A stretch of DNA of 64,000 nt from Ideonella paludis (GTDB lineage: Bacteria > Pseudomonadota > Gammaproteobacteria > Burkholderiales > Burkholderiaceae_C). The position numbers and the translations under genes were made by a program. Shown here piece by piece: positions 42,348 to 49,865 of this stretch (within the stretch, counting starts at the first letter, position 1; every line of letters starts with the position of its first letter). Location: positions 310,001-374,000 of the forward strand of contig NZ_JAGQDG010000001.1 of assembly GCF_018069865.1 (NCBI RefSeq), read 5' to 3'. A model generated the notes under the pieces. That model was given only the letters and a program-made list of their open reading frames with translations. It had not been told where the DNA came from and ran no database searches.

Positions 42348-43049
42348 TCAACCCGCGCCCAACACCCTCACCAACTCAGCCAAATCCGATCCCTCAAACC
42401 AAGGCTGGGCTGAGGCGCCCTCGGGTTTGGGGGGGGGGCCCGGGCGGCAGACCCAAGCAGCGGCAAGCCCAGCACCGCATGCACCTTCGATGTCCAAGGC
42501 CCAGTCGTCGCCCACATGCAGGACTTGGTGCGGGGTGAGCTGAAGATGCTCACACGCGGCATGGAAGAAGGCAGGCTCGGGCTTGCCCTGGCCAAAGGCC
42601 TTGGCGCTGAGGCCGCCGATGAAGAATTGTGCCAAACCGATACGCTCAAGGTCGGCGTTACCGTTGGTCAGGGCAAACAAAGGCCAGCGAGCGCTCAGGG
42701 CTTGCAGGGCCGCCAAGGTGTCGGGGTACAAGACCACGCGCTGGCGCTCGTCGAAAAACACCTCAAAGGCCGGCGCCGCCAGGGCCTCGTCGTCACCCGC
42801 CTCGCGCAGCGCCCAGGCAATGCTGGTCTGGCGTTGCCACGAGAGGTCGTGGGCCTGGTCCGGGTGGGCGTCAGCCACCGCATTGCGAATGCGGCGCAAG
42901 GCAGCCACATCAAAGCGCGCCGCGGTGCGGGGGGCGTGTTGCTTCAACCAGCCGTGCAGCGCTGCTTCCGCCCGCGCGATGGTGGGCCAGACCGGCCAGA
43001 GCGTGTCGTCCAGGTCCAGCGTCAGCGCTTGAAAGGAGTGCCCGCTCAC
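42348..43049 (-). CDS. HAD-superfamily hydrolase
   Basis: 233 aa. Motif I LDLDDTLWPV (nucleophile Asp and acid/base Asp), motif II FALTNGNAD, motif III Lys in GKPEPAFF, motif IV HVGDDWALDIEGA: all four HAD motifs are intact. A helical cap sits between motifs I and II (YjjG/gph-like). Substrate unknown, probably a small phosphate ester. GTG at 43049 overlaps the corA stop (GTGA). Confidence 0.88.
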   Translation of the reverse strand: MSGHSFQALTLDLDDTLWPVWPTIARAEAALHGWLKQHAPRTAARFDVAALRRIRNAVADAHPDQAHDLSWQRQTSIAWALREAGDDEALAAPAFEVFFDERQRVVLYPDTLAALQALSARWPLFALTNGNADLERIGLAQFFIGGLSAKAFGQGKPEPAFFHAACEHLQLTPHQVLHVGDDWALDIEGACGAGLAAAWVCRPGPPPKPEGASAQPWFEGSDLAELVRVLGAG

Positions 43050-44020
43050 CGCATCCAGCCTTTGCGGCGGAAGTAGATCAGCGGCGCGGCCACCGAGCAG
43101 ACCATCAGCCCCAGCGCGAAGGGATAGCCCCAGGTTTGGCTGAGTTCGGGCATGTGCTGGAAGTTCATGCCGTAGACGCTGGCGATCAGCGTGGGCGGCA
43201 GCAGGGCCACGCTGGCCACCGAGAAGATCTTGATGATCTTGTTCTGGTTGATGTTGATGAAACCGACTGTCGCGTCCATCAAGAAGTTGATCTTGTCGAA
43301 CAGAAACGCGGTGTGGCTGTCCAGCGAGTCGATGTCGCGCATGATCTGCCGGGCTTCTTCAAACTGCTCGGCATTGAGCATGCGGCTGCGCATCATGAAG
43401 CTGACCGCGCGACGCGTGTCCATCACATTGCGGCGAATGCGGCCGTTCAAGTCCTCCTCGCGGGCAATGGCGGCCAGGGCCTCACCGGCGGCGCGGTCGT
43501 CCACATCTTGCTTCAAGACGCGGGCGCTGACTTTCTCCAGCGCGTCATAGATGCCTTCCAGCGCGTCGGCGGAATACTCAGCATCGGCGTCATAGAGCTT
43601 GAGCAGCACATCCTTGGCGTCTTCAATCAAGGCCGGAATGCGGCGGGCCCGCAGGCGCAGCAGGCGGAACACGGGCAAGTCTTCGGCGTGGACCGAGAAC
43701 AGCACGTTGTGAAAGAGGATGAAGGCCACCCGCACATTGCGCGGGGTGATGTCGTCGTCAATCAAGAAGTCGGAGCGGATGTGCAGCTCGCCGTTGTCTT
43801 CTTCGTAGAAGCGAGCCGACTCTTCCAGGTCATCGTCGACGATGTTGTTGGGGATGTGCAGGCCAAAGCGGGCAGCAATCCAGCCAATTTCTTCCGCCGT
43901 GGGGGCTTCCAGGTCGACCCAGACGGGTTGCACGTCGGCCAGGTCAGCGGCCGAGTCGATCTCTTCTTGCAGCAAGCGGCCACTGAGGCGGCCTTTGTCC
44001 AGCGTGAATACGTTCAGCAT
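43046..44020 (-). CDS. corA: CorA-type magnesium/cobalt channel
   Basis: 324 aa. Long N-terminal cytoplasmic domain with acidic metal-sensing stretch (VDDDLEESARFYEEDNGE), two C-terminal transmembrane helices and the selectivity motif YGMNFQHMPEL at the end of TM1. It forms a pentameric Mg2+ channel of the inner membrane. Coupled to the HAD gene by a 4-bp overlap. The 162 bp upstream, before the kinase stop, show nothing I can name. Confidence 0.95.
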   Translation of the reverse strand: MLNVFTLDKGRLSGRLLQEEIDSAADLADVQPVWVDLEAPTAEEIGWIAARFGLHIPNNIVDDDLEESARFYEEDNGELHIRSDFLIDDDITPRNVRVAFILFHNVLFSVHAEDLPVFRLLRLRARRIPALIEDAKDVLLKLYDADAEYSADALEGIYDALEKVSARVLKQDVDDRAAGEALAAIAREEDLNGRIRRNVMDTRRAVSFMMRSRMLNAEQFEEARQIMRDIDSLDSHTAFLFDKINFLMDATVGFININQNKIIKIFSVASVALLPPTLIASVYGMNFQHMPELSQTWGYPFALGLMVCSVAAPLIYFRRKGWMR

Positions 44021-44182: not shown

Positions 44183-45775
44183 TCACCGCGGGTGAGGGGC
44201 GTCCAAGGGGGGCACCTTCGTAGTGGCGATGGCTGAATTATGGTCCATGGGGGACCCGCCGATGGCCGCGACGGTGACGACAGGCAGAGATAAACGCACC
44301 CGCGTCCCTTGACCTGGCTCGCTGTCGATCTCCATCCAGCCGCCTTGCAGGTCGATGATTTCCTTGCACAAGCTCATGCCCAGGCCTGTGCCGGGGTTGT
44401 GGCGCGACGGATCTGCGCGCCAAAAGCGCTCGCAGACACGGCTGACTTCCTCAGGCGTCATGCCGATGCCGCGGTCGCGGATCTCCAGCGTCAACCACTG
44501 GTCGTCAGCCGCCGCAATGCTGAGTGCGACGGGTTGGCCAGGCTCAGAGTACTGGCGCGCGTTGTCCAAGACCTCGGAGACGGCCTGCACCGCCTTGATT
44601 TCGTCAATGAGCAAGAGGGCGTCGGGACACTCTGCGGGCAGGCTCAAGGGATGGCTGACGCCGGCTTCGAGCTGAGACTGGGCGATTTGCTCCAGCAAAC
44701 GCTTCAAGGGCGTGGGTTTGCGCTCCATGTCTCGACCCTGGCGAGCTTCGATGCGCGCCAAGTCGAGCAGTTCGGTGACGATGCGCATCATCAACTGGCT
44801 CTGCCGCAGCACGATGCTCATGGCTTCTGTGCGTCGCTCCTCAGACATCGGCCGATGCAGCAAGAGCTCGGCATAGCCCAAGATGCTGGACATGGGGGTT
44901 CTGAGCTCGTGCGCGGCGCTGGACAAGAAGTCGCTCTTCATGCGCTCGGTCTCGGTCTCACGCGTGACGTCGCGGATGAACACCACATGTCCGCCGTCGT
45001 CACTGCGGCGCAGCGAGACTTGAACCACGGCGTAGCACGGACGCTCTCGGCGAAGTTCCATCACGGCGTCGTTCTGCCCTGCGCCTTCGGCAATCAACAG
45101 CTCGGTGATGGGGTTGCGCTGGGTTTCAGCGGGTGACAAGAGGCCGACCAGCCTGTCCTCGAACTGCGTCAGGCTGAGCCCCAAGGCTTCTCCTGGCATG
45201 AAACACATCAGCCCATTGAGCACCTTGTTTTGATAACGCAGGCGCTCATCCGCATCGAAGTAAGCAACGCCCGCGTCGCACAGCTCCAGCATGGCTTCGA
45301 TTTGGGCCAAGCGCGCCTTGGATTTGGCGGCCATGCGCATGGCATCGTCTGCCGACAGGGCCATGGTGCGTCCCAGCAGCAGCAACTCCCCCGCGGCGTC
45401 GTGCGCAGCAAAGTCTTTGAGCTTCAGGCCTTTGCCTTGCATGTCTGCCATGCTGGTCACCACCGGTGCCACGACCAGCAGCATGCTGCCGTCGTCCATC
45501 CACTCGGGGCTGCCTCTGAGCTGCAGGCGCTTTTCATCTTTGCTCACCAGCGTGCACAGGCCATGCCCGTGCTGCAGCCAGTCTTTCATCGTGGCATGAC
45601 GCTGTGGTCGCTTGATGTCGAACAGACCGTCCAAGCGTTGGTTGAGGCGATCACCCAGTCCTAAGGCCCAGAGGCTGGACCCCATAGAGCGAATGTGCAG
45701 GTCTTCATCCACCCACACATGAAAGGGGAAGGCTCGGTTGAGCTGATCTCCCCGCAAAGATAAGGTGCTGTCCAT
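44183..45775 (-). CDS. HNOBA-domain sensor histidine kinase, partner of H-NOX
   Basis: 530 aa, no transmembrane helix. The N-terminal 125 residues begin RAFPFHVWVDEDLHIRSMG, the pattern of heme-NO-binding-associated (HNOBA) domains. A short coiled segment and a PAS-like domain (about 155-275) follow, then HisKA with His289 in SSAAHELRTP, and an HATPase (DRGIGMTPEE, GTGLGMSL). All catalytic boxes are intact. It starts 12 bp after the H-NOX gene, so NO bound by H-NOX probably modulates this kinase. Phosphorelay target: the single-domain receiver two genes upstream, or the HTH-REC protein. Confidence 0.88.
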   Translation of the reverse strand: MDSTLSLRGDQLNRAFPFHVWVDEDLHIRSMGSSLWALGLGDRLNQRLDGLFDIKRPQRHATMKDWLQHGHGLCTLVSKDEKRLQLRGSPEWMDDGSMLLVVAPVVTSMADMQGKGLKLKDFAAHDAAGELLLLGRTMALSADDAMRMAAKSKARLAQIEAMLELCDAGVAYFDADERLRYQNKVLNGLMCFMPGEALGLSLTQFEDRLVGLLSPAETQRNPITELLIAEGAGQNDAVMELRRERPCYAVVQVSLRRSDDGGHVVFIRDVTRETETERMKSDFLSSAAHELRTPMSSILGYAELLLHRPMSEERRTEAMSIVLRQSQLMMRIVTELLDLARIEARQGRDMERKPTPLKRLLEQIAQSQLEAGVSHPLSLPAECPDALLLIDEIKAVQAVSEVLDNARQYSEPGQPVALSIAAADDQWLTLEIRDRGIGMTPEEVSRVCERFWRADPSRHNPGTGLGMSLCKEIIDLQGGWMEIDSEPGQGTRVRLSLPVVTVAAIGGSPMDHNSAIATTKVPPLDAPHPR

Positions 45776-45787
45776 GGTGGTCCTTGA

Positions 45788-46333
45788 TCATTGCGTGAGC
45801 ACACGCACCCGGAAGACTGCTTTGGCATCGCCCGCCTCAGGCTGAGGCTCCAGAGAGATGGTCTGATGCGCGCGTTTGGCCAAGCCTCGGATCAAGCCCG
45901 CCACCATGGGTGCCAGACCTTCGCGATGGGAGTTGTAGATCACATCGAAGCTGCCGTCTTCGTTGTCTTGCACCGAGAACACCGGGAGGTGCATCTGGGG
46001 GAAGACGATCTCGACGCGACCGTGCAGGTCGTTGAGGTTGCCCAAGATGTCTCTCAGGTTGTCGCCGGCTGCGTCCAGCAGTTGGCCGTAGCCTTCCTCG
46101 GCGGTGTAGAGAATCCAGTACTCGCCGAAGGCCTCCAGCACCTGCTCTGCAGTCAAGCCCGTTTCGACAGTGACGGCCGATACCAGCTTGTAGGTCAGTG
46201 CATCGTCATAGGGCTGCATGCTGACAAAACCATCGGCGTGCGTGTCCGCCATGGCACACACTCTTTGCCAGCCCGCCTCACCTTTGATGGAGGTGACCAG
46301 TTGCTCAATGGCTCGGTTAACCAGTCCGTACAT
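45788..46333 (-). CDS. H-NOX heme-based nitric oxide sensor
   Basis: 181 aa, the normal length of stand-alone bacterial H-NOX. Starts MYGLVNRAIEQLV; the proximal heme ligand is His104 in LNDLHGRVEIVFP and the heme-propionate motif YxSxR is Tyr133-Ser135-Arg137 in YNSHREGL. Bacterial family members bind NO and control an adjacent histidine kinase or cyclase; the HNOBA kinase immediately downstream fits this. It lies 52 bp after the receiver gene in the same probable operon. Confidence 0.92.
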   Translation of the reverse strand: MYGLVNRAIEQLVTSIKGEAGWQRVCAMADTHADGFVSMQPYDDALTYKLVSAVTVETGLTAEQVLEAFGEYWILYTAEEGYGQLLDAAGDNLRDILGNLNDLHGRVEIVFPQMHLPVFSVQDNEDGSFDVIYNSHREGLAPMVAGLIRGLAKRAHQTISLEPQPEAGDAKAVFRVRVLTQ

Positions 46334-46385: not shown

Positions 46386-46766
46386 TCAGCTTGAGGCCTC
46401 AGGCGTCATCAGCTGCTCAATCGTGTCGATCAATTGCAGTGGGCTGAAGGGCTTGATGAGGTACTCATCGGCACCAACATGCTCACCGGCCTCGCGGTCA
46501 CGCTGTTGGCCACGCGCCGTCAGCAGCACCACCTTGATGTGCTGGGTGGCTGGATCGGACTTGATGCGTTGGCAGACCTGCAGGCCGTCAAACTCGCCGG
46601 GCATCATCACGTCCAACAACATCAGGTCGGGCTGAATGGCCGCAGCCATGCGCAGGCCAAATGAGCCATCCGCGGCTTCGTGGATTTCGTAGTTCTCGAA
46701 CTCCAGGGTCATGCGGATGAGTTTTCGGATGTCGGCTTGGTCTTCGACAATCAGGATGCGCTTCAT
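46386..46766 (-). CDS. Single-domain response regulator (CheY-like)
   Basis: 126 aa receiver only: acidic pocket in IVEDQADI, phospho-acceptor Asp52 in LLDVMMP, Thr in LLTARG and Lys in LIKPF. No output domain, so it acts by protein contact or as a phosphorelay intermediate. Between the degenerate kinase (27 bp upstream) and H-NOX, it is the natural target of the HNOBA kinase. Confidence 0.92.
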   Translation of the reverse strand: MKRILIVEDQADIRKLIRMTLEFENYEIHEAADGSFGLRMAAAIQPDLMLLDVMMPGEFDGLQVCQRIKSDPATQHIKVVLLTARGQQRDREAGEHVGADEYLIKPFSPLQLIDTIEQLMTPEASS

Positions 46767-46793: not shown

Positions 46794-47912
46794 TTAGGCG
46801 GGCTTGTTGGCTTGTGCTTTGCGGTCGCGGGCGCGGGCCATCAAAGCGGCAAGGTCTTTGGCATATTGCTGAGCTTGAGCAATATCGAGTTGGCTGGAGT
46901 CGAACTGGTGCGGGGCGCCGGTGGGCAGGTCGATGACAAAGGTGTGTAGGCCACCTTCGTCTTCTTCGCGCAGCTGGCCGCCGTGCAAGGAGATGATGTG
47001 TTCGGCCAATTGCAGGCCGATGGCTTCGCCCACGGGGCGCTTGGGCGTCTCAGTGCCCGCTGCCTGGGCGGGCGCCCCGCCGGTCAAGGCCACACCTTTG
47101 ACTTCCTCTTGCGAGAAAACGCCGACGTCGCGCAGCATGATGATGGCGCGGGCGCCCATTTGCCGATGCTCGATCTCGAGGGCGCCGCCGGCAGGTACGC
47201 CACGCACCGCCATCTCCAGGCACTCCGTGAACACGCGCTTGAGCCATTGCTCACTGCCATACAAGACGGCAAGGTCCTTGAGTTCGCCCTCGACTTGCAG
47301 GCGGGCCGTGACGCTGCGCTGCTGTGCCAGTGGCTCGACTTCCGCCCAGCATTGTTGAAGCAAGGGCCACAGCTCAATGCGGTCGGCAGACATCAGAGCG
47401 TCTGAGCGCCAGACAGCGGCCAGATCCACCAGCTTCTCGACCAGCTTGATCAAGCTGTCCACGTGCTCTCCAGCCACCTTCATGTCGTTGGCCACGCCGG
47501 TCCTGAGAGCACCCGCCAAAGCTTGCTGCGCTTGGCGCAGCGGGTCTCGCAAATCGGTGCGGATGACTTGCATCAGGTTGTCGAAGGCCACACCACCACT
47601 GTCGGCACCTTCCGCCTGCACCACCACAAAGGCATCGTCTTTGGCAAGGCCCGGCAGCACGCGGCAGTTCAGCTCGGCAGGCGCAGCACCCGGGCGCGGG
47701 GCCGCACCAATGGCCTTGACCACTTTGGGCGTGCGGCTGGTGATGACCTCGACCAAGGCGCGCTTCAAGTCGGGGTCAAACAGCTTGCGGCCCAAGGCCA
47801 AGCCCGTGCGCTGCCCGCCTTGGGAGTTGATGTGACGGATCGTGCCGTCCTGGCCTACCCACAGCAAGCCGTGTTGCGAGTGTTCCAGCAGTTCATCGAG
47901 TGTGGCGTGCAT
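46794..47912 (-). CDS. Degenerate histidine-kinase-like protein (pseudokinase)
   Basis: 372 aa. ATG at 47912 follows AAGGAGG with 8 bp spacing. An N-terminal PAS-like fold (about 1-100) precedes a HisKA-like helix where the H-box reads VIRTDLRDPL: Thr119 stands in place of the phospho-acceptor His. In the ATPase part both N-box Asn are replaced (ECLEMAVRG), the G1 box reads RDVGVFS (second Gly lost) and the G2 region reads GEAIGLQL. Overall fold and length are kept and the frame is open, so it looks like a selected non-catalytic scaffold or signal-input partner rather than a decaying gene. Role unknown. Confidence 0.8.
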   Translation of the reverse strand: MHATLDELLEHSQHGLLWVGQDGTIRHINSQGGQRTGLALGRKLFDPDLKRALVEVITSRTPKVVKAIGAAPRPGAAPAELNCRVLPGLAKDDAFVVVQAEGADSGGVAFDNLMQVIRTDLRDPLRQAQQALAGALRTGVANDMKVAGEHVDSLIKLVEKLVDLAAVWRSDALMSADRIELWPLLQQCWAEVEPLAQQRSVTARLQVEGELKDLAVLYGSEQWLKRVFTECLEMAVRGVPAGGALEIEHRQMGARAIIMLRDVGVFSQEEVKGVALTGGAPAQAAGTETPKRPVGEAIGLQLAEHIISLHGGQLREEDEGGLHTFVIDLPTGAPHQFDSSQLDIAQAQQYAKDLAALMARARDRKAQANKPA

Positions 47913-47956
47913 GTGGCGCACCTCCTTACAGATCAGCGTGCAGAGCAGTTTTCACT

Positions 47957-48011: not shown

Positions 48012-48028
48012 TCGCCTGCTTCAGGCGA
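48012..48028 (-). terminator. Possible intrinsic terminator after HTH-REC gene
   Basis: Perfect 7-bp stem TCGCCTG/CAGGCGA with a 3-base loop overlaps the stop codon; on the minus strand it is followed by a T-rich ATTTCTTCT stretch. Weak but well placed to separate the HTH-REC transcript from the pseudokinase operon. Confidence 0.4.
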
Positions 48029-48662
48029 ATTGAGCCGGCTCAGCGGCGCGATCCGCCGCCTTTTGCGCCAGCAAGTGGCGCGCGCGTTGCTCCAATTGGG
48101 AGAACGGCACCGGCTTGGTGAAGGACTCAATGCCGGCGGGCAAGCCCCCGCGGTCGGCAATGTCGGCCGGGCTCAGCGCCGTGACGACCAAGATGTCCAT
48201 GCTTTGCGCCAAGGGCTTCATGGCTTGCAGTGCCCGCAGCATCCGAAAACCGTCCATGCCCGGCATCATCAGGTCGGTGATCAACATATCCGGCGGGTGC
48301 TCGCCCAGGCGCACCAAGCCCTCAAAGCCATTGCGGGCCAGGTCTAGGTCGATGGGCAAGTCCCAGGATTCAACGGTCAAGGCATAGAGCCGCAGCAGGT
48401 CGGCATCGTCCTCGACGACCAGCAGGCGCACGCGCGCTGGCTCGGCTGGCGCCACCGCAGGGTCGGGGGCTGCGTGCATGTCTTGCACTTGGCGCTGCTT
48501 TAAGCGCTCGACCGCGTCGCGCGCAATGCGTCGATGTCCGCCCGCCGTCTTCCAGGCCGGCAAAGCCCCCGCCTCGACCCATAACTGCACCGTGCGCAGG
48601 GCCACGCCCAGCAATTCAGCCGCTTGGCGGGTGGTGAGCACGTCGTCGTCGTGGCGAGTCAT
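48021..48662 (-). CDS. MerR/excisionase-type HTH fused to a receiver domain
   Basis: 213 aa. Residues about 8-55 form an excisionase/MerR-like winged helix (TTRQAAELLGVALRTVQLWVE, then GGHRRIARDAVERL). After a Pro/Ala linker the receiver domain runs from about 78 to 200 with acidic pocket VVEDDAD, phospho-acceptor Asp130 in LITDLMMPGMDGF, Thr-type VVTAL and Lys in SFTKPV. The DNA-binding domain precedes REC, reversed from the usual order. It is probably the transcriptional output of the NO/kinase locus. It is divergent from the kinase at 48774. Confidence 0.88.
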   Translation of the reverse strand: MTRHDDDVLTTRQAAELLGVALRTVQLWVEAGALPAWKTAGGHRRIARDAVERLKQRQVQDMHAAPDPAVAPAEPARVRLLVVEDDADLLRLYALTVESWDLPIDLDLARNGFEGLVRLGEHPPDMLITDLMMPGMDGFRMLRALQAMKPLAQSMDILVVTALSPADIADRGGLPAGIESFTKPVPFSQLEQRARHLLAQKAADRAAEPAQFA

Positions 48663-48773: not shown

Positions 48774-49865
48774 ATGCCCTCTCCTGCCCACGCCCTCTGT
48801 GATGCCCTGCCTGCGCTGCTGGACCAGGCTCAAGAAGGCATGGCCTGCTTTGACGCTGAACAGCAGCTGTTGTGGTGCAACCCTGCATTCGCCATGGTTT
48901 TCGGCAGCACAGCAGAGGCCTTGCGGGGCGAAACCCTGAGCGCACTCGATGCACTTCTGGCCCCGCTGCTGGCCGGGCGGACGGCCACGATCGGACCTTT
49001 GCTGCAATGCCACGCATCGCTGGGCAGGCCAGGCGCCGCCACCGTGCGTTTGGCCCATGGACGTGAGTGGACGCTGCGCGGCCAGCCCGGGCCCCATGGC
49101 GGCTTCAACCTCTACCTCGCCAGCCTCAGCGCCCCGCAGAGGCAGCGCCACAGCGAGTTCCTGGCGACGGCCGCACACGAGTTGCGCAACCCCGTGGCCA
49201 GCCTCTTTGGATTCGCCCAGTTGCTGCGCAGCCGCAAGCTCAAGCCCGAAGGATTGGCGGAGGTCACGGAGATCCTCTGCCGCCAAGCCGACTCGCTCTC
49301 GCACTTGGTCGAGGAGTTGCTGGATTTGGCCAGGGTGGACGCCAAACAAGGTCAAGACTTCAAACCCCAGGCCGTGTCCTTGACCGCCTTGCTTCAAGAG
49401 GCGCGTGATTCGCTGCCCGCCGAGCTGACCCCGCAGCGCGTGCAAGTGCGCATCGCAGCCAGCGCCGACCTGCTGTGGGTGGACCGCGCCAAAGCCCTGC
49501 GGGTATTGATCAACATCCTCTCCAACGCCTTGAAGTACTCACCACAACACACACCCGTGCAGGTTCATGCTCGTCGAGAGAAGAGCCGTCCGCCATGGGC
49601 AGACATTGAGGTGACGGACCACGGCATTGGCATGAGCGCCGAACAGCAAGCTCGGATCTTCGAGCGCTTCTATCGCGCCGACCCTTCTGGGCCCATTCCG
49701 GGCACAGGTTTGGGCATGAGCTTGGTGCAAGAACTGGTGGTCTTGATGGGCGGCAGCGTGCGGGTGACAAGCGCACTTGGGCAAGGTTGCCGGGTCAGCC
49801 TGAAGCTGCCACTGGCCACGACCCACATCGTGGGCCAGAAGCTCGGCGAAAAACAAGGCGCCTGA
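48774..49865 (+). CDS. Soluble PAS-like sensor histidine kinase
   Basis: 363 aa with no transmembrane helix. A PAS-like N-terminal domain (about 10-115, QEGMACFDAEQQLLWCNPAFA), HisKA with His135 in TAAHELRNPVAS, and HATPase with NALKYS, DHGIGMS and GTGLGMSL boxes intact. Divergent from the HTH-REC gene, which is its likely cognate regulator. The catalytic half is closely similar in wording to that of the HNOBA kinase at 44.2 kb (ERFYRADPS versus ERFWRADPS), suggesting a local duplication. Confidence 0.89.
   Translation: MPSPAHALCDALPALLDQAQEGMACFDAEQQLLWCNPAFAMVFGSTAEALRGETLSALDALLAPLLAGRTATIGPLLQCHASLGRPGAATVRLAHGREWTLRGQPGPHGGFNLYLASLSAPQRQRHSEFLATAAHELRNPVASLFGFAQLLRSRKLKPEGLAEVTEILCRQADSLSHLVEELLDLARVDAKQGQDFKPQAVSLTALLQEARDSLPAELTPQRVQVRIAASADLLWVDRAKALRVLINILSNALKYSPQHTPVQVHARREKSRPPWADIEVTDHGIGMSAEQQARIFERFYRADPSGPIPGTGLGMSLVQELVVLMGGSVRVTSALGQGCRVSLKLPLATTHIVGQKLGEKQGA

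Follow-up and report, generated by a model that had tools for sequence, protein, structure and literature searches.

Bacterial proteins that keep the fold of a histidine kinase (HK) but have lost its catalytic residues, the pseudo-histidine kinases, are already a known class, of which few members have been studied so far. NifL of Azotobacter vinelandii, which combines a PAS domain with an HK-like module, acts through protein binding; its partner is NifA and its PAS domain binds FAD. RetS, a hybrid protein of the membrane, has a kinase as its binding partner. The chief example is DivL of Caulobacter crescentus, which binds DivK~P and lengthens its half-life while having neither kinase nor phosphatase activity (PMC4211667). 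Heterodimers involving HK-like proteins are known as well, for instance ChrS/HrrS (PMC9491836) and FasB/FasC (PMC12675982).

Here, we analysed a His-less HK-like protein, hereafter the pseudokinase, encoded in a 64,000-nucleotide stretch of Ideonella paludis DNA (the window; contig NZ_JAGQDG010000001.1, positions 310,001 to 374,000). A preceding sequence-only reading had described it as a non-catalytic kinase in an NO-sensing operon. The features of the locus are as follows (window coordinates):

48021..48662, minus strand: MerR-type HTH + receiver protein, ending 108 bp upstream of the pseudokinase gene
47921..47927, minus strand: Shine-Dalgarno sequence AAGGAGG of the pseudokinase
46794..47912, minus strand: His-less pseudo-histidine kinase of 372 aa, encoded by 46797-47912, with PAS, DHp-like and CA-like parts and a C-terminal helix
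47613..47912, minus strand: PAS-like N-terminal domain, residues 1-100 (AF2 model, structure matches)
47409..47597, minus strand: DHp-like helical hairpin, residues 106-168 (AF2 model, structure comparison)
47556..47558, minus strand: ACC codon of Thr119 at the phospho-acceptor position
46923..47384, minus strand: CA/HATPase-like domain, residues 177-330 (AF2 model; the lid is of low confidence)
47211..47225, minus strand: degenerate N-box, in which E230 and M234 replace both Asn (HK853 alignment)
47115..47129, minus strand: partly degraded G1 box D262-V-G-V-F266, opposite DNGIG (HK853 alignment)
46809..46895, minus strand: conserved family-specific C-terminal helix, residues 340-368 (AF2 model, homologue conservation)
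46386..46766, minus strand: single-domain receiver, the constant partner of the pseudokinase, adjoining it downstream
45788..46333, minus strand: H-NOX protein, a lineage-specific neighbour (HNOB match, 9e-42)
44183..45775, minus strand: HNOBA-PAS histidine kinase with an intact H-box (HELRTP)

The reading frame is uninterrupted from its ATG start, and frame and Shine-Dalgarno sequence are intact as the earlier reading had it; the receiver, the H-NOX protein and the active HNOBA kinase named there are likewise present. That the pseudokinase is the first gene of this set is uncertain, as the MerR-type HTH-receiver gene lies upstream on the same strand and possibly shares its transcript.

An AlphaFold2 (AF2) model based on 7 sequences (mean pLDDT 67, pTM 0.44) shows the predicted kinase-like PAS-DHp-CA fold, with a pLDDT of about 80 across most of the PAS-like domain and a long C-terminal helix beyond a flexible linker; a second model with the PAS domain removed was of lower confidence. 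Structure comparison matched the model to HK853 (Z 18.3) and, among its best matches, to DivL (4q20; Z 17.5, 185 residues), in agreement with the overall kinase fold pattern noted before. Both matches extend over residues 116-331, the matched region being 103-334 at its widest, and the C-terminal helix falls outside them, which sets the protein apart from DivL. Full-length matches to PAS-HK structures were obtained as well, and further matches included NifL-NifA (9qq6), by sequence and by structure, and the RetS/GacS-type structures 7n0e and 6dk7. Searching Pfam with the pseudokinase gave HATPase_c alone, below threshold (22.9 versus a cut-off of 26.4 bits), and no HisKA match, while HisKA scores of 61-65 bits were obtained for the HNOBA kinase nearby and for the other PAS kinase. 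NCBIfam returned weak matches to many kinases, every one far under its cut-off; no curated Pfam or NCBIfam model spans the whole protein as a family, and a PDB profile search using the narrow family alignment gave no match at 1e-12.

Active HisKA kinases carry an acceptor His in the H-box and, for Mg-ATP, the N-box Asn and the G1/G2 glycines. When catalytic positions were assigned by aligning the family profile to HK853, Thr119 fell on the acceptor His, and E230 and M234 on the two N-box Asn, exactly as had been read from the letters. The description of G1 and G2 as degraded holds for G2, of which (I)GL...HGG is left, and only in part for G1, where Asp262 and Gly264 are kept and the final Gly is replaced by Phe; the lid is variable among homologues. 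The acceptor column of 38 aligned homologues reads A11 S8 T7 D6 E3 H1 L1 R1, so that 37 carry a residue other than His and the Thr is not conserved. A conserved replacement acceptor (Tyr, Ser or Asp) was rejected because of this variability, and Tyr, the residue at the DivL acceptor site, occurs in none of the 38. The sole His (L069; codon CAC, draft genome 84% complete) looks secondary since this homologue is devoid of an N-box and is nested in a clade of 12 rows, with support, whose other members do not have His; orthologues with an intact His, which would have spoken for recent decay, are thus limited to this case. N-box position 1 is Glu in 38 of the 40 homologues, and the second Asn is retained in nine outgroup members (L063, L064, L085-L089, L100, L101), which is why the ATP site seems to have been eroded by degrees.

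Could the protein nonetheless act on phosphoryl groups, as a receiver phosphatase or a phosphotransfer shuttle? Many HKs are bifunctional, and an acidic residue (D/E) follows the acceptor position in 35 of 38 homologues, D120 being kept here. The HisKA phosphatase motif (E/D-x-x-T/N in the H-box) is nevertheless broken by Asp at position 123, and Thr or Asn is absent at H+4 from all aligned family members, which carry D, P, E, Q or others instead. Together with the missing acceptor His, this makes such a role, including the phosphatase-like one considered by the sequence-only reading, very improbable.

Homologue searches, which spanned genus, family, order and class as well as genome contigs, yielded 40 homologues at 39 loci, all from Burkholderiales. 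Within the GTDB family of the window they occur in 25 of 400 genomes (E<=1e-20), with further ones in other families of the order; hosts include Ideonella livida, Rubrivivax gelatinosus, R. benzoatilyticus and unclassified Burkholderiales. Family members beyond the order were dismissed, as a class-level profile search (369 genomes) returned generic active kinases only, with matches that cover DHp-CA to about residue 339 and exclude the tail. In the tree, a 100/100 branch parts all pseudokinases from the 13 active kinases added for comparison, among them the HNOBA and PAS kinases encoded nearby; being unrooted, the tree is compatible with a single origin without proving it. Second, diverged pseudokinase copies were seen in two genomes (L062, 5909-6943, G005; L077, 6641-7690, G171), the L062 branch being very long. 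At L038 and L079 the homologue N-terminus leaves the alignment abruptly, possibly due to a frameshift in the draft sequence. Searches of open-access literature on H-NOX with single-domain receivers or on degenerate HKs with receivers gave no description of this family, which may carry a name elsewhere.

Reading frames are intact in nearly all homologues and dN/dS of close pseudokinase pairs amounts to 0.06-0.37. Given the conserved family and the purifying selection, the pseudokinase appears to be maintained rather than decaying; a recent pseudogene was rejected on the same grounds, and the catalytic loss is, judged from these comparisons, apparently old and selected. The protein therefore belongs to the pseudo-histidine kinases, as an HK fold that has lost its catalytic residues and is maintained by selection. 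A functionless, decaying kinase gene might be suspected from the vanished catalytic motifs, from the syntenic locus of G026, where the pseudokinase is missing and only HTH-receiver, receiver and corA are present, and from the further advanced erosion in G002, G011 and G014. Faced with intact frames, low dN/dS and a strongly conserved non-catalytic tail, we find this reading hardly credible.

A single-domain receiver lies at most 160 bp downstream of the pseudokinase in 37 of 40 rows, 11 of which show a 4-bp ATGA overlap of the two genes; in L080 the distance is 768 bp, and L062 and L077a have no adjacent downstream receiver. D9, D52, T83 and K105 are invariant in the 38 receivers, which should therefore be phosphorylatable. 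Of 16 genomes of the genus, 6 encode a receiver of at least 83% identity, and precisely these 6 also encode the pseudokinase. G026 and G275 encode a receiver of 75-78% identity while the pseudokinase is missing, hence the receiver can presumably work alone, and the pseudokinase is likewise absent beside those of the distant receivers (60-68%) that were checked. By gene content, the dependence between the two appears to be one-sided. Adjacency and co-occurrence may also come from shared inheritance of one operon. K15, Q63 and T83 were considered as marks of pseudokinase-paired receivers and dropped, as they were specific against 5 controls and weakened against 16.

Since many related species keep the pseudokinase beside the same receiver, it is probably a non-catalytic receiver partner. 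A maintained non-catalytic kinase partnered with the receiver, as already proposed from the sequence, is well supported by family conservation, purifying selection and tight pairing. The best explanation, to which we give an even chance, is that of a conserved Burkholderiales protein which reads or holds the downstream receiver in a DivL-like manner. A kinase, here HNOBA under H-NOX control and elsewhere a multi-PAS kinase, would phosphorylate the receiver. The receiver lacks an output domain of its own and would dock on the pseudokinase; docking would relay the receiver state to a further target, or store and stabilise receiver~P in the way known for DivL and DivK~P. Like DivL, the protein has an HK fold that lacks the acceptor His, presumably makes little or no use of nucleotide and, judged from gene pairing, probably works with a stand-alone receiver. 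To our knowledge, DivL and DivK do not form an operon pair of this type.

Where would the receiver dock? Conservation by segment is highest in an LPTGAP stretch (3.21 bits) and in the C-terminal helix (3.07 bits), followed by G2/HGG (2.80 bits) and the N-box helix (2.70 bits), whereas the part of DHp helix 1 that follows the H-box is one of the segments with the lowest conservation (1.42 bits). As DHp helix 1 is the usual receiver-docking surface, canonical DHp docking is not favoured. The C-terminal helix has the signature LDxxQAQxYAxDLAxLMxR, with Gln346 and Leu357 invariant in 40/40, and was not found in other ORFs of the loci examined; one-sided conservation of the tail helix was not significant (p 0.11). 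Attached by a variable linker, this helix is the leading candidate for a docking site, either for the receiver or for a downstream target. More tentatively, the family, possibly unnamed until now, and its receiver may form a two-protein switch that is tied to no fixed kinase, in which the receiver docks on the C-terminal helix and kinases (PAS, NO/H-NOX or none) are swapped freely.

The kinase varies. Some loci have a multi-PAS kinase alone, H-NOX with an HNOBA kinase is found in the window, L069, L079 and L080, both kinase types occur at L076, L083, L100 and L101, and none at L065-L067. In these last three genus members, the pseudokinase is shortened, has no recognisable PAS and stands beside an 82-83% receiver. 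H-NOX is present at 10 of 39 pseudokinase loci and, within the genus, at this locus in the window's genome only. Thus, the window resembles known H-NOX/HNOBA operons in having both genes beside a receiver, but the pseudokinase-receiver pair mostly occurs without H-NOX, and a constant genomic association expected of an H-NOX signalling component was not found. The H-NOX/HNOBA part of the earlier description stands, the pseudokinase as a specific element of NO sensing does not, and we regard the NO connection as a lineage-specific input. Across loci, it follows that the receiver persists most, the pseudokinase next and the kinase least.

The main rival explanation is that the pseudokinase heterodimerises with the active kinase of its locus and tunes the balance of kinase and phosphatase activity, as RetS does with GacS. 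The modelled DHp-like hairpin is kept, a same-strand kinase lies downstream in 34 of 38 receiver-paired rows, and the heterodimerising pairs cited above provide precedents; with RetS/GacS, the protein shares an HK-like module suited to modulating another signalling protein. However, the constant partner here is the receiver, the kinds of partner kinase differ between loci and DHp helix 1 is poorly conserved. Above all, G002, G011 and G014 keep the pair although their locus has no kinase and the multi-PAS kinase has no close orthologue elsewhere in these genomes, where its matches are partial and reach 43%. Dimerisation with the active kinase, also raised by the sequence-only reading, is thereby weakened as core function, and we consider it unlikely.

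Somewhat less likely still is a NifL-like sensor, gated by nucleotide or PAS ligand, that binds another protein directly and takes the receiver as one input. Most members have a PAS-like domain, the G1 Asp and Gly and the G2 GL are kept in the window protein, the second N-box Asn survives in the outgroup, and NifL-NifA is among the matches by which this likeness is proposed. On the other hand, the main clade has lost the N-box Asn and eroded its lid, recognisable PAS domains are lost in G002, G011 and G014, and the receiver is the sole constant downstream effector.

Reading or holding of the receiver remains our preferred function; the pseudokinase may also titrate the receiver, as the sequence-only reading had suggested. 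The family offers many natural homologues, a near-constant receiver, an ATP site lost to different degrees and natural experiments that lack either kinase or PAS domain, and hence a tractable system for a dead kinase that reads a receiver, with inputs swapped onto a fixed output pair. Genes like this one may carry a sensor-kinase annotation and should be treated with caution.

The surroundings of the cluster show some recurrent elements. A divergent PAS histidine kinase (48774-49865, plus strand) lies beside the MerR-type HTH-receiver gene, relatives of which recur near many pseudokinase loci. An HD-GYP-like gene often directly follows the receiver (L037, L070-L072, L076, L079, L098, L099), with the motif HHERWDGSGYP in L037, which suggests a link to c-di-GMP. 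In the window (43046-44020, minus strand) and in many genomes, corA comes after the cluster in the same orientation, with HPF at the opposite end, so that the cluster is flanked by HPF and corA.
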